Shown: piece by piece, positions 33,980 to 51,923 of the stretch
How positions within the stretch are numbered: position 1 is the stretch's first letter
How the letters are laid out: the number at the start of each line of letters is the position of its first letter
NCBI RefSeq assembly: GCF_018780105.1
Contig: NZ_JADMKC010000007.1
Span: forward strand, 186,001-250,000
From: Thiobacillus sp.
GTDB lineage: Bacteria; Pseudomonadota; Gammaproteobacteria; Burkholderiales; Thiobacillaceae
DNA length: 64,000 nt
Direction: 5' to 3'
Notes under the pieces: generated by a model
What the model saw: only the letters and a program-made list of their open reading frames with translations
What the model was told of the DNA's origin: nothing
Database searches by the model: none
Translations under genes and position numbers: made by a program

Positions 33980-34816
33980 ATGAAGTCATTCTGGATCAGT
34001 CTGATCCTGATGCTGGGGACGGCTTGTCACGCCGCATCCCCCAGCCCCTACGCGTTCGGCGTGCTGAACCAGCGCAGCCTGCAGGCAACGGCGGCTTACT
34101 GGAACCCGATCCTGAGTTATGTGACGACCCGCTCCGGCGTGCCGCTGGAACTGCACATCGGACGTACCGCCAACGAAACCACCGACCGCGTGACGGCAGG
34201 CAAACTGGATTTTGCCTATACCAATCATTTGTTCACCCCCAAGCGCGACCGGCTCGGCTGGCGCGTGCTGGCGCGCCAGAATTCGGCCGGTATTCGCGGT
34301 CAGCTGGTCGTGCTCGATTCCTCGCCAGTGAGATCGCTTGCGGCACTGGCGGGCAAGCCGGTGGCGTTTGCCAATCCCTATGGCTTTACCGGCTACTACG
34401 TGCCGATGGATGCCTTGCTGCGCGCCGGAGTCAAGGTGGTTCCGGTATTTGCCGGCAACCAGGAGGCGGCAATGGGGCAGCTGGTGTCGGGTGAAGTGGC
34501 CGCCGCCGGGGTCAACCATCAGGTGATGGCGGATTTCGCCAAGCGGCACGGCTTGAAGTACCGCGTGCTGAGCGATTCCGATCCTTACTACGATCTGGCA
34601 GTCATGGCATCGCCGCGCGTCAGCCAGACCGATGGCGAGAAGGTTCGTGCGGCCTTTGTCGGCATGACCGAAGACCCGGAAGGGCAGCGTGTGCTGCAGG
34701 CGGCGGCACGGGAGGTCGGCGCCTCCAAGGCGTGGGGGTTTGCCCCGGCCGACGAGCGTGATTACGACAATTACCGGGCGTTCCTCAAAGCTACCCTGGT
34801 CCCGCTCAATGAATGA
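33980..34816 (+). CDS. PhnD-like phosphate/phosphonate-type binding protein
   Basis: A 278-residue periplasmic binding protein with a signal (MKSFWISLILMLGTACHA) and the PhnD fold: YAFGVLNQRSLQATAAYWNPIL, the LDFAYTNHLF block and AFANPYGFTGYYVPMDAL. No transporter permease or ATPase gene is near. Instead the stop overlaps by 8 bp with the start of a GGDEF-EAL gene, so this is more likely a ligand sensor input than a transporter part. AGGAG precedes the ATG. Confidence 0.9.
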   Translation: MKSFWISLILMLGTACHAASPSPYAFGVLNQRSLQATAAYWNPILSYVTTRSGVPLELHIGRTANETTDRVTAGKLDFAYTNHLFTPKRDRLGWRVLARQNSAGIRGQLVVLDSSPVRSLAALAGKPVAFANPYGFTGYYVPMDALLRAGVKVVPVFAGNQEAAMGQLVSGEVAAAGVNHQVMADFAKRHGLKYRVLSDSDPYYDLAVMASPRVSQTDGEKVRAAFVGMTEDPEGQRVLQAAAREVGASKAWGFAPADERDYDNYRAFLKATLVPLNE

Positions 34817-37205
34817 GCACATGGGCGTGCGCGCCACCCGCTACAGCCTGACGGCGAATATCCTGGGCGCGGTGTTTGCCTTGATTCTGCTGATGTATCT
34901 GGTGACGCTGATCGGCCTGGGGTTCTCGCTGCGGGAACGTGCCCAGAAGAATCTGGAATTGGCGACTGAACGCGAACTCAGCGCATTCATGACCGTGATC
35001 CAGGATCAGGTGCTGCTGCGTGACTATCCTGCTATCGAGCAGCTGATCGCAGCGCGGACCAGGCATGAGCATATTTTGCTGGCGCGATTTGTTTCGCCCG
35101 GCTTTTCTTATGAAGCACGGACCCCGTCCGTACATCCGACTTCCCCAGCGTGGTTTTCCCTTATGCTCGATTTGCCTGCACCGCTGGCGGAGTCGGATGT
35201 AAAAGTGGGCGGAAGCAACTACGGCAGGATGAGCGTGATGCTGGATCCGACGCCGTCGGTACAAGGCTTGTGGAGCCTCACCGTGCGCTTTACCTGGCTG
35301 GTGATTATCGGCCTCGCGGTCAGTATGCTCTTGCTGAACTGGTTGCTGGGGCGCAACCGTCGGGGTCTGGCCGCCTTGCGCGAAGCGGCGCGCGCGATCG
35401 AAACCGGCAACCTGCGCGCGCGCGTGAGCCTGGCGCATGGTTCGTCCCCCGAGGTGCGCGAAACCAAGCTGGCGTTCAACCACATGGCCGACCACGTCAG
35501 CCAGCTGGTGAGCGCGCTGGAAAGCGAGCATGCGGATTTACTGGTTGAAAAGGAACGCCTGCGGGTGACGATCGAGTCCATCGGCGATGCCGTCATCGTG
35601 ACCGACTCGCGCGGCCTGATCGAATTCATCAATCCCAAGGCCGAGGAACTGACCGGCTACAGCAGCAGCCACGCGCGCGGCAGGCCAGTGTCCGAGGTGT
35701 TGCCGCTGTTCAACGAAGACAGCGGTGCGCCGGTGACCAATCCGCTCGAGCTTGCCCTGCGGGGCAACCAGGTCGTCGAGCTGGCCAGCCATTCCGTGAT
35801 TGTGCGTCCGAGCGGGGCGACGCTGGCGATCAGCGACACCGCCGCGCCGATCCGCTCGCGCGAGGGCAAGGTGCTGGGCGGCGTGCTGGTGTTCCACGAT
35901 GAAAGCGAAATGCGCCGCCTGATGCAGCGGCTGGCGCAGCAGGCCGAGCGCGACCATCTCACCGGCCTGTGGAATCGCCGCGCCATGGAAAACCGGCTGG
36001 CCGCGGCCTTGCAGGGCGTGCAGCAAAAAGGGCAGCGCTATATTTTTTGCTACATCGATCTCGACCGCTTCAAGCTGGTGAACGACACCTGCGGCCATCG
36101 TGCGGGCGATGCCCTGTTGCAGCGGCTGACTGCGTTGCTGGCCCGGCGCGCCGAAAGCGAGCAGCATTTTCTGGCGCGCCTGGGCGGGGACGAGTTCGGC
36201 CTGCTGTTCGTCGACACCACTTTGCCGGCGGCGCTGGAATACATCCAGGGCATGCGCGACGAAATTGACCGCTTTCGCTTCGAGTGGGACGAGAAAGTAT
36301 TCCGCCTGGGCGTGAGCATCGGCGTGACCGAACTGCACAGCGGCATGACCGATATCGGCGAGATTCTGGCGCAGGCGGATACCGCGTGTTACCACGCCAA
36401 GTCGCTCGGCGGCAGCATGATCCAGGTCTACGAGAAGACCCATCCCGCATTGCAGAAAATCAGCGACGAAATGCAGTGGGTGAGCGCGATCACCAAGGCG
36501 TTCGAGGCGCACCGCTTTGTCTTGTACCGCCAGCAGAAGGTCGCGCTGGCGCCCGGGATCGCCCAGCCGCATTACGAAATCCTGCTGCGTCTGCGGGGCG
36601 AGGATGGCGTGATCATTTCACCGGGCGAATTCCTGCCGGCGGCCGAGCGTTACGGTCTGGCGCCGAGTTTCGACCGCTGGGTGGTGCGCAACCTGTTCGC
36701 CTATCTCGACACCCATCCGGAAGATCAGGCCTGGTATGCGCTGAATCTGTCGGGGCGCAGTCTCAGCGACCAGGGCACTGCGGATTTTGTGCTGGAAGAA
36801 CTGGATCGCTACAAGCTCGACCCTGCCCGGATCAGTTTCGAGGTCACCGAAACGGCTGCGATCGACAACCTCGATGCGTGCGAACGTCTGATCCTGACGC
36901 TGCAATCACGCGGCATCCAGTTTGCGCTGGACGACTTCGGCAAGGGGCAGTCTTCGCTGGGCTACCTGAAGCGCCTGCCCGCGGCCTACCTCAAGCTCGA
37001 CGGCGATTTCGTGCGCGGCCTGGATCACAACCGCGAGAATCTCGCCATCGTCAAAGCCATGCACACGCTGGCGCACGAGCTGGGCAAGCAAACGGTGGCC
37101 GAGCAGGTGGAAACGCAGGGCGAGCTGGGGTGTCTGAAAACGCTGGGCGTGGATTTTGTGCAGGGCTATCTGTTGCACCGCCCGGAACTGCTGCAGATGG
37201 ATTAG
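34809..37205 (+). CDS. membrane PAS-GGDEF-EAL cyclic-di-GMP protein
   Basis: A 798-residue signalling enzyme. It has a membrane span (~13-36), a periplasmic domain (~37-160), a second span (~163-188), HAMP (~190-245), PAS (~255-360), GGDEF (~375-545) with intact RLGGDEF near 459-463, and EAL (~560-795). The EAL site appears complete (EILLRL, FEVTETA, LDDFGKG, LKLDG, VAEQVET, VQGYLL), although the EAL triplet itself is EIL. It may make and break cyclic-di-GMP. Its start overlaps the PhnD-like gene, suggesting control by that periplasmic protein. Confidence 0.93.
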   Translation: MNEHMGVRATRYSLTANILGAVFALILLMYLVTLIGLGFSLRERAQKNLELATERELSAFMTVIQDQVLLRDYPAIEQLIAARTRHEHILLARFVSPGFSYEARTPSVHPTSPAWFSLMLDLPAPLAESDVKVGGSNYGRMSVMLDPTPSVQGLWSLTVRFTWLVIIGLAVSMLLLNWLLGRNRRGLAALREAARAIETGNLRARVSLAHGSSPEVRETKLAFNHMADHVSQLVSALESEHADLLVEKERLRVTIESIGDAVIVTDSRGLIEFINPKAEELTGYSSSHARGRPVSEVLPLFNEDSGAPVTNPLELALRGNQVVELASHSVIVRPSGATLAISDTAAPIRSREGKVLGGVLVFHDESEMRRLMQRLAQQAERDHLTGLWNRRAMENRLAAALQGVQQKGQRYIFCYIDLDRFKLVNDTCGHRAGDALLQRLTALLARRAESEQHFLARLGGDEFGLLFVDTTLPAALEYIQGMRDEIDRFRFEWDEKVFRLGVSIGVTELHSGMTDIGEILAQADTACYHAKSLGGSMIQVYEKTHPALQKISDEMQWVSAITKAFEAHRFVLYRQQKVALAPGIAQPHYEILLRLRGEDGVIISPGEFLPAAERYGLAPSFDRWVVRNLFAYLDTHPEDQAWYALNLSGRSLSDQGTADFVLEELDRYKLDPARISFEVTETAAIDNLDACERLILTLQSRGIQFALDDFGKGQSSLGYLKRLPAAYLKLDGDFVRGLDHNRENLAIVKAMHTLAHELGKQTVAEQVETQGELGCLKTLGVDFVQGYLLHRPELLQMD

Positions 37206-41733: not shown

Positions 41734-44487
41734 TCATGGCGGGCTGCCGCCGAGCACCTTTTCAACCGGTTGCGGGCGGCCGAAGTGGTAACCCTGTGCG
41801 AAATCGATGCCCAGTGCGCTGACCCGTTTGAGGATGGCCTCGTTCTCGACATATTCCGCCACCGCCTGCTTGCCGTAGCCGTGGATCGCCTCGACCAGGG
41901 CCTTGACGAACAGCTGGTCGTCCTCGCTTTGATCGAGGGTGCGGATGAAGGAGCCGTCGATCTTGACGAAATCCACCGGCAGATGCTTCAGGTACTGGAA
42001 GGTCGAGAAGCCGACGCCAAAATCATCGAGCGCCAGCTTGCAGCCGAGCGCCCGGATGCCGCTGAGCAGAACCTCGGCATGGGCAAGCTGGTTGAGCGCT
42101 GCGGTTTCGGTGATTTCCAGGGTCAGCTGCTGCGGGTCGACCTGATGTTTCTGCAGCAAATTGTGCAGCAGTGCAGGGAGCTCGGGGTTGTCGAGGCTAC
42201 GCGCAGACAGGTTGGCAGCCAGATGCAGTCCGGGCCAGCGGGCGATCAGTTCGATGACGCGTTGCAGCACCCACAGGTCGATTTCGCGGATCAGGCCGGA
42301 AGCCTCGGCTGCGGCGATCAGCGGGGCGGGCGGCAGCGTCTGGCCGTCCGCCGTGTGGACACGCAGCAGGGCTTCGTAATGGGCCGGCCGGCCGGTTCGC
42401 ACCTCGATGATGGGCTGCAGGTACAACTCCAGCCGGTCGTTCTGCAGGGCGTCTGTCATCAGGGCGAGCTGTTCGGTGCGATCAAGCAGGTTTTCGCGAA
42501 TGCCGTCCTTGGGGTTGTACAAATGCCAGTTGCTGCGGCCTTTGCTGCGCGCCTGCGACAGGGCGAGGTCGGCCTGTCCCATCAGGGATTCGGTGTTGGC
42601 GCCTGGTCCATTCGGCTGCAGCGTGGTGATGCCGATGCAGGCTGTGGCGATATGCTGCTTCTGCTCACCTTTGCACAGCAGGCGGGCCGTTTGCAGCAGA
42701 GAAGCGTCGGGCATGGGATCGAAAAACAGCGCGAATTCGTCGCCGCCCAGACGCGCAGCCAGACGTGGTTCGGGCTTGAGTTCGCGCAGCCGTTCGGCCA
42801 TGCGCTGGATCACCGCATCCCCTGCGCTGTGGCCGGCCAGATCGTTGATGGCCTTGAAATCGTCGAGGTCGATCAGCAACAGTGCGCCGCCTTGCGCGCC
42901 AAGCAGAATCTGGTCCAGACGGCGCTGGAAGCCCTGGCGGTTGTACAGACCGGTGAGCGTGTCGTAATCGGACAAATAGCTGGCGCGCGCCTGCGCGCTC
43001 TTGAGCTCGGTCAGATCGAGGCCGACCGACAGGATGAGGGGATCGCTGCCGCTGGCCTGGCCGATCAGGGAATGCACCCAGGTAATGTTGCGCAGGCCGT
43101 CCGCAGTGACCAGCGGCGCTTCAAACCGCAGCGGCGTCAGGTCGCGGGTGAAATGCGTCAGCAGGCGGGAACGCCATTCCTGGCGCTCCTGCTGGGCAAC
43201 CATCAGGTCGAAGTAATCCTTGCCGATGAGCTGATTTTCCGTGAGGCCGGTAAGGTTTTCGCAGTAATGGTTGGCCATGCGGATCACGCCGCGCTGGTCC
43301 TGCGTCAGGATCAACGCCTGGGCGGTATCGAGCAGGCCGGTGATGAAATCGCGCTCGTGCGACAGGGTGTCCACCAGTTTACCGAGGTCGTTTTGCTGGT
43401 TGCGTGTGGCGGTATCCAGCGTTTCAAGCTGGCCCGCGAGCGATAGCGCAGCATCCTTCAGCGTGGATATTTCGTCGCGCGGCTCCTTGTCCGGGATGCG
43501 CAGATACTGGCGAACCTGCTGCCAGTGTCCCTGGCCGAGCAGGGGCAGGCAGGAGCTGACGCGGTTCATGCGCCGCATAAACCAGATCAGCGCAATGAGG
43601 AGCGCGACTTCAGCAAGTACGAATACGCCGATGCCGGTGAACAAGTTGCTCATGAACACGCGCTTGATGGCCTGCTCGTCTGCGGTGACTTCCTTGCGAG
43701 CAATGAAGTAAGGCGTGTTGGCTGCAGCCTCCAGTGGTTGCAGCTTCTGCCATTCGTAGGTCTTGCTGTCGTTGTGGCTGATGGCCGATTCGATGTGCGG
43801 AAGCTGCGGGTAAGGGGTGAAGTCGATCGCGCCGAGCAGCGTTTTGAGCGGCGGCGTGGTGGCGCTCAGCACGCGGGGCGCTCCCGCACGGTCGATCGCG
43901 ACCGCGAGATCGCGTCCGCTGCTCTTGGCGAAGGCGCTCAGCAAACCCGAAAGATCCATGGTGACCACCACAGCCCCGGCGGTGACGCCCTGGCGCAGCA
44001 CGGGCACCATGCCGACGAACAGACAGCTTTCGGTGCAATGCAAGGCGCTGGACGGGTGCTCCTGACGCAGCACTTCAGCCAGTTTGGCGCGAATCTGGCG
44101 GTCAGCCGGGGGCACGTTGCCAAAACCGATGACCAGATCCTGGCTGACATCGTAAAGTCGCAGGCTTTCAAATCCCTGGTTCAGACTGAGCTGATCCCAG
44201 TAGGGTTGCAGGAAGGCGGCAGAGTCCAGCTCGAGCGAGCCGGTGCTGCCGACCACCAGAAAGTCGGCCAGCGCGGTGCCCGCATCCAGCAACTGGCGTT
44301 CATTCTGCTGAATCAGAAAGCGCAGCAGCGCCTCGTTGCGCATGGCGTCGTCACGCCGGCTCTGTTCAACGGTGTTGCGCAGATTGGCGTCGTTCACCCA
44401 GGTGAGCGCGATGGTGCCGGCTGCCATGGCCAGCGTGAGCGGCAGCAGCAGCTTCCATTTCAGGCTGACGAAGCGCGGGATGAACAT
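41734..44487 (-). CDS. membrane PAS-GGDEF-EAL cyclic-di-GMP protein
   Basis: A 917-residue sensor enzyme. Two membrane spans (about 10-28 and 285-305) enclose a large periplasmic domain, followed by a coiled linker, PAS (~375-500), GGDEF (~505-665) with RLGGDEF near 577 and EAL (~675-910) with YEALLRV, LDDFGVGF and VAEYVEN. Both catalytic cores look intact. It follows the porin gene by 4 bp, so the porin and a mini binding protein are its likely partners. Confidence 0.93.
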   Translation of the reverse strand: MFIPRFVSLKWKLLLPLTLAMAAGTIALTWVNDANLRNTVEQSRRDDAMRNEALLRFLIQQNERQLLDAGTALADFLVVGSTGSLELDSAAFLQPYWDQLSLNQGFESLRLYDVSQDLVIGFGNVPPADRQIRAKLAEVLRQEHPSSALHCTESCLFVGMVPVLRQGVTAGAVVVTMDLSGLLSAFAKSSGRDLAVAIDRAGAPRVLSATTPPLKTLLGAIDFTPYPQLPHIESAISHNDSKTYEWQKLQPLEAAANTPYFIARKEVTADEQAIKRVFMSNLFTGIGVFVLAEVALLIALIWFMRRMNRVSSCLPLLGQGHWQQVRQYLRIPDKEPRDEISTLKDAALSLAGQLETLDTATRNQQNDLGKLVDTLSHERDFITGLLDTAQALILTQDQRGVIRMANHYCENLTGLTENQLIGKDYFDLMVAQQERQEWRSRLLTHFTRDLTPLRFEAPLVTADGLRNITWVHSLIGQASGSDPLILSVGLDLTELKSAQARASYLSDYDTLTGLYNRQGFQRRLDQILLGAQGGALLLIDLDDFKAINDLAGHSAGDAVIQRMAERLRELKPEPRLAARLGGDEFALFFDPMPDASLLQTARLLCKGEQKQHIATACIGITTLQPNGPGANTESLMGQADLALSQARSKGRSNWHLYNPKDGIRENLLDRTEQLALMTDALQNDRLELYLQPIIEVRTGRPAHYEALLRVHTADGQTLPPAPLIAAAEASGLIREIDLWVLQRVIELIARWPGLHLAANLSARSLDNPELPALLHNLLQKHQVDPQQLTLEITETAALNQLAHAEVLLSGIRALGCKLALDDFGVGFSTFQYLKHLPVDFVKIDGSFIRTLDQSEDDQLFVKALVEAIHGYGKQAVAEYVENEAILKRVSALGIDFAQGYHFGRPQPVEKVLGGSPP

Positions 44488-44491
44488 GGTG

Positions 44492-45688
44492 TCAGAATCG
44501 GTAGGCTGCTTGCAGCAAGCCCATGTTCCAGCGCTGTTCGGTGGCGAAAATGTCCGGGTTGTCCAGCCCCGGCACCCAGCTGGTGCCATCGACGTGGTGG
44601 TACTCCGCGCGCAGCATGAAATTGGGCGTGACATCCCAGCGCAAGCCGATTACCCAGTCGTCGCTGTACATGGCATGCGCCGGCAATCCGGTGGCCGCCT
44701 GCAGTTTCCTGCCGGTTTTATCCGTCTTGTCGCGGTAGTTGACCTCGTTGCGCAGCACCACCTCCCATTCGGGATGGAAGCGCCATTCACCCTGCACGTA
44801 ACGCGTGATCGAGTCGCGCCCGCCATCGGGAAAAGCCGGGCCGAAACCGGAGCGGTCGGTGCGCGGCTGGCCATACTCGGCAGTCAGCGTCACGGTGTCG
44901 AGTCGCTGCTGAAATGACAGCAGCAGATTGCGGAAGTGGATCTCGCCTGCGCCAAGGGTGTCCGGTGTGCCGGGTTCGTAGTCGGCATTGGCGTCGACGT
45001 AGGTCAGCATCAGCGTGGTGTCGGTCGGAGCCTCCCAGCGCAGACTGCTGCTGAATGCCGAGGAGTCTTTCAGCGCCCCCGGCCGGTTTCTGCCCAGGAA
45101 GACGTACTCCACCGCTTCGCTGTCGAAGTCGGGTTGCGCCCAGCCCAGCGTGAAGTCGAGCGTGCCCTGCGCACCGATCGCACTGGCGTGGAAAATGGCG
45201 CCCGGTGCGGCGATCAGCACACTGCGGCTGCTATCCAGATAAATGGCTTGCGGCAACAGAATGCTGGGACGGGTAAACGGGACGTCGCGCGTTTCGTTGT
45301 AAAGGCCGTACGGCACCTTGACCTTGCCGAGCTTGATCCCGAACTGGGCAGCATCGCTCTGGTAAAACCGCCAGTCGGCCTGGGCGTAATCCAGGCGCAG
45401 GCCTTCCTCGTCCCCTTCGCCTGCTTCGCGGTACAAAATCTGGCCGGACAGCTGCAATGATTTAACCGGCAACCAGAAAGCCTGCAGCCCGATTTCGGTG
45501 AAATCGGTGCTGATGGCGTCGCGGCTTTCGCCAAAAAAATTATTGTTGGTGCTGCTGATGAGCGTCTGTGCAGCAAACCCCTGGATGCGGAAACGCGTAT
45601 CGGCAAGGCCGTCTGCGTGGACGGCGGTTGCCTCCAGCAAGCCTGCCAGCAGCAGGCTACTCCAGCGTGAGCGTCTTGATGCCGTCAT
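44492..45688 (-). CDS. outer-membrane porin-like protein
   Basis: A 398-residue predicted beta-barrel protein with a signal peptide and many alternating strands. It ends in LQAAYRF, the outer-membrane assembly motif. It includes KVKVPYGLYNETRDVPFTRPSILLP, common in phosphate-selective or DcaP-like porins. It overlaps the preceding mini binding protein by 32 bp, and is 4 bp from the GGDEF-EAL gene. Confidence 0.87.
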   Translation of the reverse strand: MTASRRSRWSSLLLAGLLEATAVHADGLADTRFRIQGFAAQTLISSTNNNFFGESRDAISTDFTEIGLQAFWLPVKSLQLSGQILYREAGEGDEEGLRLDYAQADWRFYQSDAAQFGIKLGKVKVPYGLYNETRDVPFTRPSILLPQAIYLDSSRSVLIAAPGAIFHASAIGAQGTLDFTLGWAQPDFDSEAVEYVFLGRNRPGALKDSSAFSSSLRWEAPTDTTLMLTYVDANADYEPGTPDTLGAGEIHFRNLLLSFQQRLDTVTLTAEYGQPRTDRSGFGPAFPDGGRDSITRYVQGEWRFHPEWEVVLRNEVNYRDKTDKTGRKLQAATGLPAHAMYSDDWVIGLRWDVTPNFMLRAEYHHVDGTSWVPGLDNPDIFATEQRWNMGLLQAAYRF

Positions 45689-46094
45689 GGCGTGTGTCCT
45701 TGCTTGCGTCCTTGGTTATATAACCGATTGCTCCGGGTGTGGCGCGTACGCGTGCGCGCAGTTCATTCTCGTCCTTGACCTCTATCGGCGCGCTGGCCAT
45801 GCCGCTGTAGCTGAGGCGGTCCCAGATCTGGCGCAACCGGTAGGGGTAGAGGCCGAGTTTTTCCTTGGTAAAAGTTTCATGTGCAGGGTGGTTGTCCGGC
45901 AACACGAACACCACAATCATCTGGCCGCCGGGCCAGTTGGTTTGGCGCAGGGTGTAGATGTTGCGCAGGCTGGATGCGCTGATGCTGTTCACGCTGACAC
46001 TCGGGTTGACGATGACTTCGGCCATGACAGTCAGTGGGCTTGTCAGCAGGGTCAGTCCAATCAGCCAACAGGATGCAATTCGTACAAAGGTCAC
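45657..46094 (-). CDS. small PstS-like substrate-binding domain protein
   Basis: A 145-residue secreted protein with a signal (CWLIGLTLLTSPLTVMA). It resembles half of a PstS-type binding protein (PBP_like_2): SSLRNIYTLRQTNWPGG, LPDNHPAHETFTKEKLG and TPGAIGYITKD. It is too short for a complete ABC transporter partner. It uses a GTG start at 46094. Same-strand neighbours are a porin and a GGDEF-EAL protein, and a paralogous pair is at 61058-62613. Confidence 0.85.
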   Translation of the reverse strand: MTFVRIASCWLIGLTLLTSPLTVMAEVIVNPSVSVNSISASSLRNIYTLRQTNWPGGQMIVVFVLPDNHPAHETFTKEKLGLYPYRLRQIWDRLSYSGMASAPIEVKDENELRARVRATPGAIGYITKDASKDTRHDGIKTLTLE

Positions 46095-46167: not shown

Positions 46168-47220
46168 TCAATCTTTCATCAGTTGCACAACAAGTTTGCG
46201 TATGGGCGAGGGCAGGGCGGCATCCAGCGCATCGGCCGGAGGCAGCCAGATCTGGCCGGGCGCGGTGGCAAGGCGGGACGCGAGATGCAGTTGCACCGGC
46301 TGGATATGCAGCTTGAAGTGCGTGAAGCTGTGGCTCAGTTTCGGCAAGATTTTTTGCGATCGGGCGGCCACGCCGTAGTGTTCCTGGCAATGCCGGCCCG
46401 GGTCGTCGTCGACCGCAAGCTCGGGCAGACTCCACATGCCGCCCCAGATGCCTCGTGCAGGACGCTTTTCCAGCAGCAGCTCACCGCGGTCAAGCAGCAG
46501 CAGCATTTGCACCTGTTTCTCGGGCAATTGTTTTTTGGGACGCGGCGCAGGCAGTTCGGCGGTGCGGCCCTGCATGCGGGCGACACAGTCGGCATTGAGC
46601 GGGCAGGCGGCGCAGTTCGGCTGGCTGCGGATGCAGACGAGCGCGCCCAGATCCATCATGCCCTGCGTGTAGGTCTCGATGGCGCCGGCGTGGTGCAGTG
46701 TGCCGGTCGGCAACAGCGCCTCGGCCAGTTGCCACAAGGTGACTTCGATTTTCTTGTCGCCGGGCCAGCCCGCTATCCCGCCATGGCGCGCCAGGACGCG
46801 TTTGACATTGCCATCGAGAATCGCGCAATGCTGTCCATGCGCCAGCGCTGCGATCGCGGCGGCGGTGGAGCGCCCGACACCGGGCAGGCGGGCGATCTGT
46901 TCGGGCGTGTCCGGAAACACGCCGGCGTGTTGCTCGATGATGTATCGAGCGGCAGCGTGCAGGTTGCGGGCGCGGCTGTAATAGCCGAGCCCGCTCCACA
47001 GTGCGAGCACATCGTCCTCGTCGGCCGCTGCCAGTTGGGGCAGGCTGGGAAAGCGTGCGACAAAACGTTCGAAATAGGGAATGACGGTGGCAACCTGGGT
47101 CTGCTGCAGCATGATTTCGGACAGCCAGATGCGGTAGGGGTCGCGACTGCCCTGCCACGGCAGGGTATGACGGCCGTTGTGCTGTTGCCAGTGGATGACG
47201 CGGGAAGCAAATGATTTCAC
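46168..47220 (-). CDS. mutY: A/G-specific adenine glycosylase MutY
   Basis: A 350-residue DNA glycosylase removing A opposite 8-oxoG. Visible: LPWQGSRDPYRIWLSEIMLQQTQ, catalytic LSGLGYYSRARNLH, helix-hairpin-helix LPGVGRSTAAAIAALA, and the iron-sulfur cluster C-X6-C-X2-C-X5-C in CIRSQPNCAACPLNADC. The C-terminal Nudix-like part recognises 8-oxoG. GTG 47220 gives the common MKSFASRVIHWQ start; GTG 47244 is also possible. Confidence 0.95.
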   Translation of the reverse strand: MKSFASRVIHWQQHNGRHTLPWQGSRDPYRIWLSEIMLQQTQVATVIPYFERFVARFPSLPQLAAADEDDVLALWSGLGYYSRARNLHAAARYIIEQHAGVFPDTPEQIARLPGVGRSTAAAIAALAHGQHCAILDGNVKRVLARHGGIAGWPGDKKIEVTLWQLAEALLPTGTLHHAGAIETYTQGMMDLGALVCIRSQPNCAACPLNADCVARMQGRTAELPAPRPKKQLPEKQVQMLLLLDRGELLLEKRPARGIWGGMWSLPELAVDDDPGRHCQEHYGVAARSQKILPKLSHSFTHFKLHIQPVQLHLASRLATAPGQIWLPPADALDAALPSPIRKLVVQLMKD

Positions 47221-47268
47221 CCCGGCAGGGTAACACTCCCCCACATGCCCAGGCAGGCGGGAGAGGGC

Positions 47269-49524
47269 TCAGGCGTGACCGAGTTTCTGGCGGAACAGGT
47301 TCATCAACTTGCCGAGTGCGGACTCGGTAATGGACTTGCGTTCGACCAGGACAGCCTCGCCGCGCCGCAGTTTGTCGGCCAGGCGGTGCAGGCCGATGGA
47401 GAAGCTGTTCAGGCCATCCTGATCCGAGAACAGATAGGTGTTTTTGACGCCGCTGACCCAGCCCAGACGCGCCCAGCGGATGGTGCCGTCTTCGTAGTGA
47501 AACTCCACCCAGTCGCCTTTATTGAGCGAGCGGGCGCGCAGGCTGAACAGGTCTTCGAACACGGGGGCGGCTGGTTCCGATTCGGCCTCCGTTGTTGCAG
47601 GCACATCGGCAACGGTGTTTTCGGCTTCGAACTGCTCGATGGCCGCGACCTCTTCCACCACTTCTGCCGGCGTCGCCTCCGGTAGCGGCACGGGCTGGGT
47701 GTTGGGCCGCACCGCGTTGGCATGCAGGATGACCAGTGTGGCGTAGAAACGGTCTGCCAGCTTGGCCGGGAAGTTGATTTTGGTCGTGCCTTCGCGCAGG
47801 CGTTTCAACAAGCCCGGCAGAATGCGTACCAGCATCAGGCGGGCATCCATATCCGCTTTGGATTGCACGCTCCAGACCAGTTCGCGCATGGTCTCGACGC
47901 TGCTGCTGAAGTGCGCGCCTTGCTCGCCTTCTTCGATGTAGTCCGTAGTGAGCAGCCGCGACCAGTCGCGCCGCAGGAATTCGCGCACGGCTTCCGGCAC
48001 CGGCTGGTCCTTGAGGGCGCGATTGATGAAATCGTGCACGATGACCGGTGCGAGTTCGGCACGTTCGGCCTGTTTGATCTGGGCGATATCCTGTTGCAGG
48101 CTGACATCGACCGTTTCCTCCAGGGTTTCTTCCAGCGTTGCGCCCATCGCCTCCAGTTCGGCAGCGGCAGAGTCGAACACGGCAATGTCCTGTTCGAAGG
48201 TGTCGAGCACCCGGCTGACGATGTTTGAAATGGCATCAAGGCGGGCATTGCCCGCTTCGTTGTCGGGCAGATGGATCGACAGGGTGGCGATGGCGTCCAG
48301 CATGCGCCGCACCGGATGGTTTTGTTCCGAGAAGAAATTGCGATCCAGCATGGCCGCCTTCAGTACCGGAATCTGCAGCCGTGCGATTTGCGCTTTCAGC
48401 CGGTCGGGGATCGCGGCTTCGTCGAATACCACATCGAAAAGCATGGCGACGGCATCCACCAGCACGGCGTCGAGCGGGCTGGCCGATTGCATGACCGGAC
48501 TTTGCTGCAAGCTGCGCAGCACGTTCTGGATGGAGGCCGCTTCCAGAATCGGCAATTCGAAGCTGCCGCCGTCAGGCAACCTCATGGCGCCGAGCTGCAG
48601 CTGACTGAGCGAGTCGAGCAGGCTGAAGCCGCCCCCGCCCGCGGCACCCGAAAACCCACCGCCACCTGAGGCGCCCGCGCCGGATCCGCCTGCGCCTTTG
48701 CCGCCACCGGCGAGCTGTTCAAACAGGTTGAACATGTCACCGCCAGCCGCTGCTTGAGCGGCGCCAGCAGCTTGAACGGAGGCAGACGAAGGCTGGCTCT
48801 GCGCGCGCGCCTTGGTGCCGGCCTTCAGGTCCGGGAGAACGGCGTGGTTCACCAGGTAACGGTTGATGGCCTGATAAATGCCCGCAAGCTCGGTCGTGAG
48901 CACCAGATTGAACTGATTCATCAGCACGATCTTGATTTCCTGCGACACATTCATCTGGGTGATGCCGTCCAGCAGCGCCTCGCACAGTGCGCGCGGCCCC
49001 AGGGGATTGTCGTTTTCGCCCAGATTCGGGCGTGCCGCCAGATGGGCGATGCGCGCATCCAGGGCAACCAGTTCTTCGGCGCAATTGAAGCGCAGACGCG
49101 AGGTGGCCTTGTCGACGGCCAGGGTGAGCTCAAAATCCTGGTCGCCTACCAGGGAGAGTTCGGAGAGTTCGAGTGTGGCGGGCTTTTCGCGCCCCAGGGT
49201 GAATTTGCTGAACCCCTGGCAATACGCGTCCTTGCATGCGCTCAGCAATTCGTTCGCCTGCTTGTTGAGAATGCCCTGGGCGCCGTAATAGACGTTGCGT
49301 GTATCGAGCAGGGGCGCGCGGTCGGCCATCGCCAGCAGCGTGCCTTCCATGGCTTCCATCTGATGGGTCAGGGTGCGGGTCGCCCCTTCGATCAATTGGT
49401 CGCGGCAGTCGTTCAGCATGGTCAGGGTCTCGGCAGAGACCTGGGCTCCCGACGAGGCGCGGCGTGAACGGTCGAATTGATTGAGATTGACTACGACTGA
49501 GTTTTCAGACATTTCGCGCTCCAT
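47269..49524 (-). CDS. DUF1631 family protein, under a cyclic-di-GMP riboswitch
   Basis: A 751-residue protein of DUF1631, recognised by LEGTLLAMADRAPLLDTRNVYYGAQG and the C-terminal LNKGDWVEFHYEDGTIRWARLGWVSG block. A Gly-rich linker lies at about 270-310. DUF1631 proteins are large, cytosolic and uncharacterised; the C-terminal domain may be PilZ-like, which is inference. The start 49524 has GAGGTG close by. A clear cyclic-di-GMP-I aptamer precedes it, and a shorter paralog (49770-51848) lies upstream. Confidence 0.88.
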   Translation of the reverse strand: MEREMSENSVVVNLNQFDRSRRASSGAQVSAETLTMLNDCRDQLIEGATRTLTHQMEAMEGTLLAMADRAPLLDTRNVYYGAQGILNKQANELLSACKDAYCQGFSKFTLGREKPATLELSELSLVGDQDFELTLAVDKATSRLRFNCAEELVALDARIAHLAARPNLGENDNPLGPRALCEALLDGITQMNVSQEIKIVLMNQFNLVLTTELAGIYQAINRYLVNHAVLPDLKAGTKARAQSQPSSASVQAAGAAQAAAGGDMFNLFEQLAGGGKGAGGSGAGASGGGGFSGAAGGGGFSLLDSLSQLQLGAMRLPDGGSFELPILEAASIQNVLRSLQQSPVMQSASPLDAVLVDAVAMLFDVVFDEAAIPDRLKAQIARLQIPVLKAAMLDRNFFSEQNHPVRRMLDAIATLSIHLPDNEAGNARLDAISNIVSRVLDTFEQDIAVFDSAAAELEAMGATLEETLEETVDVSLQQDIAQIKQAERAELAPVIVHDFINRALKDQPVPEAVREFLRRDWSRLLTTDYIEEGEQGAHFSSSVETMRELVWSVQSKADMDARLMLVRILPGLLKRLREGTTKINFPAKLADRFYATLVILHANAVRPNTQPVPLPEATPAEVVEEVAAIEQFEAENTVADVPATTEAESEPAAPVFEDLFSLRARSLNKGDWVEFHYEDGTIRWARLGWVSGVKNTYLFSDQDGLNSFSIGLHRLADKLRRGEAVLVERKSITESALGKLMNLFRQKLGHA

Positions 49525-49590
49525 GAGTTCACCTCGCTGCATGTGCGATGCGCCAATCAGGGAACGAGGGAAGGCGGTCAAGCCGGAGTG

Positions 49591-49677
49591 CTACCGGCAG
49601 TCCCGCTATCTCGATCTGGGTGATCGAGACCGGAAACTTTGCGTCCCCGTCTCGCGGCGGGTTTGCCCTGTTCGGTG
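49591..49677 (-). promoter_or_regulatory. cyclic-di-GMP-I riboswitch (GEMM-I)
   Basis: Read on the minus strand, the 87-nt aptamer has the hallmark blocks ACAGGGCAAACC, a GNRA-like GCGAGA loop, GGGACGCAAAG, CCGGTCT and TAGCGGGACTGCCGG. This is the order and spacing of the well-studied Vibrio cholerae Vc2 aptamer. ACCG and CGGT close the base stem. Downstream, CCTCG (minus strand, 49565-49569) can pair with the CGAGG that holds the ribosome site (49532-49536), so translational control of the DUF1631 gene is likely. Confidence 0.93.
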
Positions 49678-49723
49678 ATCAGCGCATACGCCTGTGAAAC
49701 AGACGCAACATCGCATAGCTGAT

Positions 49724-49750
49724 CTATCGACGGCTTTCAGGGGAACTTGA
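49724..49750 (-). promoter_or_regulatory. FliA (sigma-28)-like promoter upstream of the riboswitch
   Basis: On the minus strand TCAAGTTC-N11-GTCGATAG matches the FliA consensus TAAAGTTT-N11-GCCGATAA with exact spacing, and the TCAAGTT variant is common in flagellar promoters. Transcription would start near 49717, ahead of the aptamer at 49677. This is a sequence-only prediction. Confidence 0.5.
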
Positions 49751-49769
49751 GGGGCTGCAGGAAAAAAAT

Positions 49770-51848
49770 TTACGCTGCGCTGTCTAGCAAATGCGATTTG
49801 AGACGCAGCATGGCTTTCCGGGTAAGCGATTGCTCCGGAATGCGTGCACGGCCGGCACGTATTTCGGCTGCGAGCTGGGTGCAGTCGAGCGAAAAGCGCT
49901 GTTCTTCGGCGTCGTCGCAAAACAGCAGGTAGCCATGTACCCCTACCCAGGCCACACGCGCCGTTGCCAGGCCTTCGTAGGGGGGCTCGAAATCGACCCA
50001 GTCGCCTTCGAGCAGTTGTTCGGCTTGCAGCAGGGCAGGGTCATCCGGGGCGGGGGGCGCCAGGTGCCGCGCCAGCGATTCGATTTCACCCTGTGAAATG
50101 GGCTGGGGCACGAACGTATCGACTACGCTGGCAGGCTGGCTGACATCCGGGCGAATCCAGCACTCCTGGGCTGTGGTGATGGCGCTGAAAAAATTTTTGA
50201 GCTGCGCGGAATCGGCACCCTGTGCCTGCAGCCCGCTGCGCAGTGCAGAACTGATTGCGGGGATGGAACGCAAGCGGGCTTCCCTTGCTTCTGGCGGCGG
50301 TGCTTGCAGGCTTTGAAACAACTGCAGCAAGGTGGAACAGGCATCGCGCCAGCTCGCCCCCTCGCCGGATTCGGCTACATAGAGCGAAGCCATGTAGGGA
50401 ACCCAGGCGGCTTCCAGCCGCCGCAGAACGGCTTCGGGGGCGGGGAAACGCGCAGTGAGATCGTGCAGGTTTTGCAGTGCCAGCAGGGTGCCCAGTTCCT
50501 GTCTTTCGATGTGTTGCAGATGGGCGACGTCAGACTTCAGCTCGGCTTCTGCACGGGTGTTTTCATCTTCCAGCCAGATGCCGAGTTCGCGCAGCGCCTG
50601 CTCGAATGCTTCAGTTGGGCGCAGCGGAGAGTCTGCGATGTGCCCGCAAGCCATCTCGACCTGTTGCAGGGCATCGGCGTAGGCTGGGTGCGTGTCGGGG
50701 AAGCGTCGTGAAAACTGGCCAAGCAGGTCGATCAGCTGGCGTGCCGGGTGGTGGTCGTCGCTGAAAAAAGCCGGCGATTCAAGGGCGACGCGCAGGGTCG
50801 GGATTTGCAGCTGCGCAATCGCAGCTTTATAGCTTGCCGAAACATCCGGATCGCCCAGGATGAACTCGAACAGACCCGCCAGCGCATCCAGTACCGCAAG
50901 ATCGAGACTTCCCGCATCGGTTTGGCGGGCGCTTTGCTGCAATTGTCGCAACAGTTGGGCGGAGGGCGCGGATGCGATGCTGCCTGGAGCGGGACTTGCC
51001 TGGCTTTGCCAATGGGCAAGGCTGTCGATAAAGCTTGGCAGGATGGCTAGCCGCTCACGGGTGCCGGACGACGGATTGCTTCCGGTGGCCGATGGGTGCG
51101 CGGCAGTCGGTTGGGCGGCCGTGCTTTGCGCCGCAACCGACTGGATGTGCGCCAGAATATCCACGCCGAGGGCTGATTCAGTGCGTCGCGATGTGGGGCC
51201 TGGTAGGGTGCGAATGGTGGTGCTTTCTTCGATTCCCTGTTCTTTCAGAAACTGATCGAGCGCGCTGTATGTGTGCTTCAGCGTATCGCATAGCGGGCTG
51301 ATCGTGCTTTGCATCAGCAGGGTGCCGCTCAGCGGGGTCAAGTCCAGCGTATCGAGGGCGCGCGAGAGCGCGTGGATGACGGGTGGCGGGCCAAACATCC
51401 GGGTATGCTCGGGCTCGCGCTGTGCGGTTTTCATCAGGGACTGCAGGCGGCTGAACAGCAGCAGCAATTCGGGACGCAGGCTCTCCGTTAGCTGGGCGGC
51501 GATTTTGTCTTCTGCCAGCTGTCGCCCCAACACATCGTCATCCACCAGTTGAAGAGGAGCCGACTGGTTGCTGGTTTGCTGTTCAAAAGTTTGAGATTGG
51601 TCGAGTTGCTGGCGAAACTGCTCGGCAAAGGCTGTCGACAGGGTGTCCGGATAGGCATTGATCCAGTCCAGCGAGGTTTGCCCGGCGGCCAGTATTGTTG
51701 GCGTGATCTGGGTGGCAATGGCGCGCAGGAGGGTGTCCTGGATTTCCTCGCGATTGCGCTGGAAAAAGTTTTCCAGCGCAATCGCCATGCGCTGCTCCAC
51801 TTCGTGGAGCAGCGCAACGGCAGAAGTCGGGTCGAGCGAAGCAGACAT
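49770..51848 (-). CDS. DUF1631-related protein, second copy
   Basis: A 692-residue paralog of the following gene, recognised by similar C-terminal LLEGDWVDFEPPYEGLATARVAWVG with YLLFCDDAEEQRFSLD and by a long alpha-helical body. Ser/Pro/Ala-rich linkers occur at about 215-290. It shares the fold but little identity with the DUF1631 gene downstream, so the pair is an old duplication. No riboswitch precedes it; the gap to tRNA-Gly is short. Confidence 0.85.
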   Translation of the reverse strand: MSASLDPTSAVALLHEVEQRMAIALENFFQRNREEIQDTLLRAIATQITPTILAAGQTSLDWINAYPDTLSTAFAEQFRQQLDQSQTFEQQTSNQSAPLQLVDDDVLGRQLAEDKIAAQLTESLRPELLLLFSRLQSLMKTAQREPEHTRMFGPPPVIHALSRALDTLDLTPLSGTLLMQSTISPLCDTLKHTYSALDQFLKEQGIEESTTIRTLPGPTSRRTESALGVDILAHIQSVAAQSTAAQPTAAHPSATGSNPSSGTRERLAILPSFIDSLAHWQSQASPAPGSIASAPSAQLLRQLQQSARQTDAGSLDLAVLDALAGLFEFILGDPDVSASYKAAIAQLQIPTLRVALESPAFFSDDHHPARQLIDLLGQFSRRFPDTHPAYADALQQVEMACGHIADSPLRPTEAFEQALRELGIWLEDENTRAEAELKSDVAHLQHIERQELGTLLALQNLHDLTARFPAPEAVLRRLEAAWVPYMASLYVAESGEGASWRDACSTLLQLFQSLQAPPPEAREARLRSIPAISSALRSGLQAQGADSAQLKNFFSAITTAQECWIRPDVSQPASVVDTFVPQPISQGEIESLARHLAPPAPDDPALLQAEQLLEGDWVDFEPPYEGLATARVAWVGVHGYLLFCDDAEEQRFSLDCTQLAAEIRAGRARIPEQSLTRKAMLRLKSHLLDSAA

Positions 51849-51923
51849 GGCCGTCAGTTAACGGCTGAATCGGGCGGAAAATTGAATGGCGGCAGGCTGG
51901 CAGGGTATTTTGATGCCGGGATT

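Follow-up and report, generated by a model that had tools for sequence, protein, structure and literature searches.

What is a cyclic-di-GMP (c-di-GMP) aptamer doing in the short interval between two genes of the DUF1631 family in a Thiobacillus genome, which of the two does it serve, and when would that gene be made? The interval lies in a stretch of 64,000 nucleotides (contig NZ_JADMKC010000007.1, positions 186,001 to 250,000), which we analysed as a whole and call the window; all coordinates below are window positions. We put at about 0.8 the probability that a canonical c-di-GMP-I riboswitch, together with a sigma-28-type promoter of its own, occupies the leader of the downstream gene, D2, and makes it a motility-phase gene gated by c-di-GMP. 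Because a riboswitch behind a flagellar-type promoter recurs in many relatives, D2 is probably part of the swim-or-settle decision of these bacteria. The elements concerned are the following.

49592-49676, minus strand: cyclic-di-GMP-I aptamer, found with Rfam models, with pocket letters G20 at 49667, A47 at 49640 and C92 at 49597
47269-49524, minus strand: D2, the DUF1631 gene that the aptamer precedes, 751 aa from an ATG start (PF07793 563 bits, cut-off 33.7, E 1.3e-168)
49770-51848, minus strand: D1, a shorter DUF1631 paralogue upstream of D2, 692 aa (PF07793 263 bits)
49724-49750, minus strand: sigma-28 (FliA)-type promoter, TCAAGTTC-N11-GTCGATAG, recognised from its sequence, its conservation across loci and a genus-wide pattern search

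The initial annotation had read a full GEMM-I aptamer with a closing stem on the minus strand, directly before a DUF1631 gene, and had named a covariance-model search as the check. Each of these points is borne out. A cmscan of the whole window placed RF03167 (c-di-GMP-I-GGC) at 49592-49676 on the minus strand with 65.4 bits against a cut-off of 59 (E 3.3e-13, model positions 1-80 of 80), and RF01051 (c-di-GMP-I, or GEMM-I) at the same position with 61.9 bits against a cut-off of 35. The closing stem pairs ACCG (49676-49673) with CGGU (49596-49593). Each model has one match in the strain's own 3.3-Mb genome and none in 14 control genomes (E 0.001 throughout). The aptamer is situated between D1 and D2, both PF07793 genes, and its 3' end lies 67 nt upstream of the D2 ATG (49524-49522) on the same strand, with a Shine-Dalgarno (SD) sequence, GAGG, at 49535-49532.

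Since RF03167 outscores RF01051, the RNA could be read as a 'GGC' variant that may sense a ligand other than c-di-GMP. The pocket makes this very improbable. We trained an aptamer model of our own, R1, on 30 aptamers (14 of them preceding DUF1631) and aligned 72 aptamers; the A47 position is A and the C92 position, which pairs with the ligand, is C in all 72, while the G of G20 was confirmed in 69 with a script and in the remaining three by eye. The labels G20, A47 and C92 at 49667, 49640 and 49597 follow Vc2 numbering. Where the window has GCAAAG, the consensus of RF03167 has GCGAAG, so that model position 37 is A at 49640, as it is in 72/72 aligned aptamers; we take a G at this position to be the mark of the 'GGC' variant. 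The window's RNA is thus like RF03167 as its best-scoring Rfam model and unlike it at position 37. At position 20 it carries G (49667) and not the A of the cyclic GMP-AMP (cGAMP)-sensing GEMM-Ib, and this position separates c-di-GMP from cGAMP sensing through an A20G swap (PMC6456294). These letters make the pocket a canonical one and the RNA an ordinary member of the cyclic-di-GMP-I class; the Rfam 'GGC' label is therefore not readable as an altered ligand and is best left unused. The RNA resembles RF01051 members in fold, pocket letters and leader position, and departs from them in its DUF1631 target and in the sigma-28-type promoter in front.

We give almost no credence to a decayed or chance match without function. 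At least three related loci do carry a decayed aptamer (L052, L054 and L183), showing that its loss is tolerated; the window's copy is intact across all 80 model positions with an E-value of 3.3e-13, and the pocket letters are kept in the 72 aligned copies.

The link to DUF1631, which the initial annotation had proposed from this one locus, recurs widely. A DUF1631 scan of named genomes gave 245 relatives; in 71 of the best 80 loci, exactly one aptamer lies upstream of DUF1631 on the same strand, in a set with a bias of its own: its query alignment was built from genes linked to an aptamer, and the nearest relatives alone were kept. Among the nine aptamer-less loci, one (L083) starts inside the gene. 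The set includes a near-identical locus with 97% protein identity (L073), and the leader from aptamer to start codon ranges from 44 to 207 nt (no start was found in L070, and that of L095 is uncertain). When tables for 36 genomes were compared by eye, 28 of 31 D2-type genes (above 370 bits) had an upstream aptamer, the exceptions being in G011, G015 and G042; none of 36 long DUF1631 frames (1228-1421 aa) had one within 1 kb among the matches listed. We also drew 200 genomes evenly from the order. R1 matched in 79 of these, and in the best 30 loci, one per genome, DUF1631 lies downstream of the aptamer in 20, spread over nine family labels (L167 has almost no downstream DNA), a count to be read knowing that R1 favours DUF1631-linked aptamers because 14 of its 30 training aptamers precede DUF1631.

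In the window, D1 ends 94 nt before the aptamer, as it might if the aptamer were a 3' element travelling with D1, or else a free small RNA that soaks up c-di-GMP, in either case without control of D2. A stand-alone, hugely expressed c-di-GMP riboswitch RNA does exist, namely the merRNA of Bdellovibrio (PMC3627812). We nevertheless consider this highly improbable. A D1 match occurs upstream of the aptamer in 30/72 loci (gap 87-97 nt) and is absent in the other 42, some of whose contigs end there, whereas a DUF1631 match lies downstream in all. The aptamer also keeps its place beside DUF1631 when the surrounding genes change: thiG, trmB and mutY were not found in the available DNA of 11 distant loci (L095, L097-L101, L103-L107), and there too it precedes DUF1631. 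Finally, the minus strand between aptamer and D2 has no terminator-like site. As far as the arrangement of these loci tells, the aptamer goes with D2 and not with D1.

Related aptamers also precede other genes. These targets include secreted subtilases with Ig domains (L003, L014, L016), an Ig/cadherin-type surface protein, a PKD protein, a ShlB-type secretion protein and a weak reprolysin-like match. In eight Thiobacillus genomes, a contig with a long DUF1631 frame also bears a second aptamer, at a distance of 9.9-12.9 kb from that frame.

What would switch on transcription of D2? Sigma-28 (FliA) promoters have the consensus TAAAGTTT-N11-GCCGATAA with fixed spacing, and boxes of this type fall within the 94-nt interval between D1 and the aptamer. 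In loci of the Thiobacillus type, whether D1 is present or not, boxes resembling TMAAGTTT-N11/12-GCCGATAR stand some 46 nt upstream of the aptamer. We scored candidate promoters by their match to TAAAGTTT/GCCGATAA out of 16 letters, with C also permitted at the second position. The window's promoter scores 13/16, and a score of at least 13 was reached in 52/72 loci against 9/2160 random windows from the same loci. Order-wide, a score of at least 12 was found in 13/20 DUF1631 loci (11/17 outside the window's family) against 0/10 loci without a DUF1631 match, and in 1.5% of shuffles; several of the loci without DUF1631 show TTGACA-like boxes by eye. The pattern AAGTTTN{10,12}GCCGATA gave 31 matches in the genomes of 50 genus members, compared with five for the backwards control, and 18 of the 30 matches fetched lie before D2.

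The factor itself is encoded in these bacteria. The strain's own genome (G000) has two FliA genes above cut-off, 27 kb apart (C29:249151 and C29:276967); within the genus, 20 of the 24 genomes tested have two (G000 is counted among them), and at least one is present in 36/36 genomes tested. In 98 kb made up of the surroundings of FliA and flagellin genes plus the window, 45 sites score at least 12 against 18.6 in mononucleotide shuffles, many of them inside coding frames, and TTAAGTTA-N11-GCCGATTC precedes a gene that we read by eye as flgK. Similar boxes, TTAAG-N16-CCGATA, were found by 5'-end sequencing at 92 of 140 attack-phase promoters of Bdellovibrio and ascribed to FliA (PMC3627812).

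Promoter and aptamer do not always travel together. In L052 and L054 the promoter is retained, and of the aptamer a 5' portion can still be recognised, with no intact copy left; the decay in G011 (L183) matches that of L052, and in L064 the promoter is kept and no aptamer was seen by eye. Of the eight aptamer-less loci examined, four, including L089, have a promoter score of at least 12. Because the promoter outlasts the aptamer at such loci, control of the sigma-28 type would seem to be the broader layer in Thiobacillus, and the riboswitch an addition that some lineages lose. Such natural loci offer a comparative system for what the riboswitch adds to the promoter.

The arrangement would amount to a double gate on one gene, with a sigma factor acting first and a second messenger in the leader second. 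The sequences themselves show the aptamer with its pocket letters, the promoter motif and its conservation, and the conserved target; we infer that FliA uses the motif, that the aptamer binds c-di-GMP, that control acts at translation, and in which direction it would act. FliA would transcribe D2 solely in cells running the flagellar programme, and the nascent leader would fold into the aptamer. Binding of c-di-GMP would stabilise P1, which would shift the pairing between the aptamer and the SD site 57 nt further on, and translation of D2 would follow c-di-GMP. Three further leader elements bear on this scheme.

49677-49722, minus strand: putative 5' leader that precedes the aptamer and contains a predicted hairpin (consensus fold; predicted transcription start)
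49582-49598, minus strand: alternative hairpin GCCGG/CCGGC overlapping the 3' strand of P1 (minimum free energy fold)
49532-49569, minus strand: possible SD-sequestering pairing of CCUCG (49569-49565) with CGAGG (49536-49532), SD GAGG included (sequence and constrained fold)

No terminator-like site was found on the minus strand at 49524-49770, which makes translational control likelier than intrinsic termination. Control is thus probably exerted at translation; Rho-dependent control of the D2 leader is possible. Consensus folds were computed from 38 of 41 leaders, L075, L078 and L079 being excluded as divergent. The SD-sequestering helix of the initial annotation fared unevenly here, in that it can be drawn in the window and is missing from the consensus fold of the 38 leaders. 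The anti-P1 hairpin is at best a weak candidate for the switch: its pairing probability is weakly above shuffles in 42 Thiobacillus-type loci (0.76 vs 0.67) and not in 30 others (0.54 vs 0.55).

In which direction would c-di-GMP act? We compared folds constrained to the ligand-bound aptamer with free folds in 41 leaders (43 had an ATGGAG-type start, of which 42 were distinct and one was dropped for N letters). Accessibility of the SD went down in 11 leaders, up in none and shifted by at most 0.05 in 30, and that of the AUG went up in nine and down in 10; direction is not decided by these figures. Class I switches of Clostridioides difficile, one of them before the flgB operon, are described as OFF switches (PMC11477304). 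Taking the folds and this analogy together, we slightly favour D2 being OFF at high c-di-GMP, a lean just off an even split.

The same architecture could serve as an ON switch, with D2 made when the flagellar programme runs and c-di-GMP rises, acting as a brake on motility by a logic like that of FlgZ. This is a substantial possibility, which we hold somewhat below an even chance. FliA-dependent c-di-GMP output proteins do exist, FlgZ among them (PMC3913639), and in the consensus fold the aptamer 3' end pairs with the SD, a pairing that ligand would break. On the other side, closing the aptamer gave a more open SD in none of the 41 leaders and a less open one in 11, and the folding arguments for either direction are weak.

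A fair assessment of the riboswitch-plus-promoter reading has to set several results against it. The leader folds carry little covariation: that of the 5' leader has four pairs, one of them changed on both sides, and its hairpin looked better in a first alignment and was not reproduced in a separate one; the fold of the expression platform has nine pairs, one doubly changed, and the pairing it shows between aptamer and SD would rather suit an ON switch. SD accessibility hardly moves in 30 of the 41 leaders. Many of the 72 aligned loci are close relatives. As for the promoter, its score is below 12 in 15/72 loci, and four of the eight aptamer-less DUF1631 loci lack a good motif. The strain's own genome holds no match to a strict sigma-28 pattern, and matches to a loose one show no enrichment (15 vs 12 in the control). 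Among the 12 genus-wide matches not before D2, no flagellar structural gene was recognised by eye; the genes there appear to encode sensor-like, chemoreceptor-like and outer-membrane proteins, and several matches lie inside frames. Flagellin genes, finally, have a divergent conserved version, TTAACTTT-N11-GACGATTC, in their upstream regions: upstream of flagellins (MAQVIN/MAAVIN) in five genomes, four had no site above threshold and G051 poor matches, and all five had the divergent version. The flagellin and D2 promoters differ in sequence, and each might use a different one of the two FliA factors.

Comparison with known systems helps to place a c-di-GMP riboswitch behind a sigma-28-type promoter. 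The C. difficile flgB-operon switch is likewise a class I c-di-GMP aptamer within a flagellar system (PMC11477304, as for the following two points). It is an OFF switch on an early flagellar operon that includes sigma-D, whereas here the riboswitch would stand downstream of sigma-28 and govern one gene. A C. difficile switch also precedes a secreted protease gene, much as relatives of the window's aptamer precede subtilases. With FliA-dependent PilZ proteins of the FlgZ/YcgR type, the flagellar regulon likewise includes a gene for c-di-GMP output, as we propose for D2 (PMC3913639). There it is the protein that carries PilZ; here the sensing would fall to the mRNA leader, and D2 has no PilZ match. 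The merRNA of Bdellovibrio is similar in that it, too, is a c-di-GMP riboswitch RNA of motile cells, beside the FliA attack-phase regulon; unlike the RNA studied here, it precedes no conserved gene, and the source's table gives it no FliA mark (PMC3627812).

In the literature searched, we found no paper joining a c-di-GMP riboswitch, FliA and DUF1631, though DUF1631 may have been listed earlier among the original GEMM targets. As far as we have seen, the target family, the conservation of the target and the sigma-28-type promoter in front appear to be new. DUF1631 is named in few of the papers covered. Promoter, riboswitch and domain fusions each point, independently of one another, to a place for it where flagellar and c-di-GMP control meet, and this unknown family thereby becomes testable.

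The fusions occur in the same genome and, with the sigma-28-type promoter and the tandem paralogue D1, go beyond what the initial annotation had noted. They are a PilZ-DUF1631-GGDEF-EAL protein (1329 aa, L112:2198-6187) and a DUF1631-GGDEF-EAL protein (1286 aa, L113:1932-5792). In D2 itself, a Pfam scan (E 0.001) found DUF1631 alone. Most probably, the DUF1631 protein serves as an output of the switch from motile to sessile life. More tentatively, DUF1631 may be a widespread and so far unrecognised Burkholderiales class of such outputs in the motility-to-attachment switch, made under sigma-28 and gated by a c-di-GMP riboswitch in their own leader, with fused paralogues acting in cis with GGDEF-EAL and PilZ domains, perhaps at the flagellar motor or cell pole; we hold this broader picture to be possible, at somewhat less than even odds.

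The D2 structure model is helical with a small C-terminal barrel (mean predicted local distance difference test score, pLDDT, 73; predicted template modelling score, pTM, 0.42). TraI and spindlin/Tudor chains lead the best 50 matches of a structure search with the full model. The modelled barrel resembles the Tudor type, a common fold that is uninformative on function. The NCBIfam name PacR was discarded, as D2 scores 162 and D1 35.8 bits against a cut-off of 1200.

Two further elements flank this part of the window.

51858-51885, minus strand: sigma-28-like boxes of D1, TCAATTTT-N12-GCCGTTAA, 9 nt before the D1 ATG (sequence)
46168-47244, minus strand: mutY, 24 nt downstream of D2 (TIGR01084 343 bits)

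We examined 24 relatives of D1; many have similar boxes 9-16 nt before the ATG, and by eye they lack a clear SD. Given boxes so close to the ATG and no clear SD, the D1 mRNA may be nearly leaderless. On the other side of D2, mutY is possibly cotranscribed with it. A mutY homologue is present in 58/80 related loci, and D2 lies between thiG/trmB and mutY in many Thiobacillus loci.

Downstream of mutY, a block at 41734-46094 on the minus strand encodes a small PBP-like protein, a 398-aa protein that resembles a porin by eye and has no Pfam match, and a dCache-PAS-GGDEF-EAL protein. The block has homologues in 18-19 of the 80 loci, many of which end before it. The window does hold two GGDEF-EAL genes, as the initial annotation had stated: the one in this block, at 41734-44634 on the minus strand, and a second at 34689-37205 on the plus strand, whose product has a LapD/MoxY-type periplasmic domain and PAS domains.

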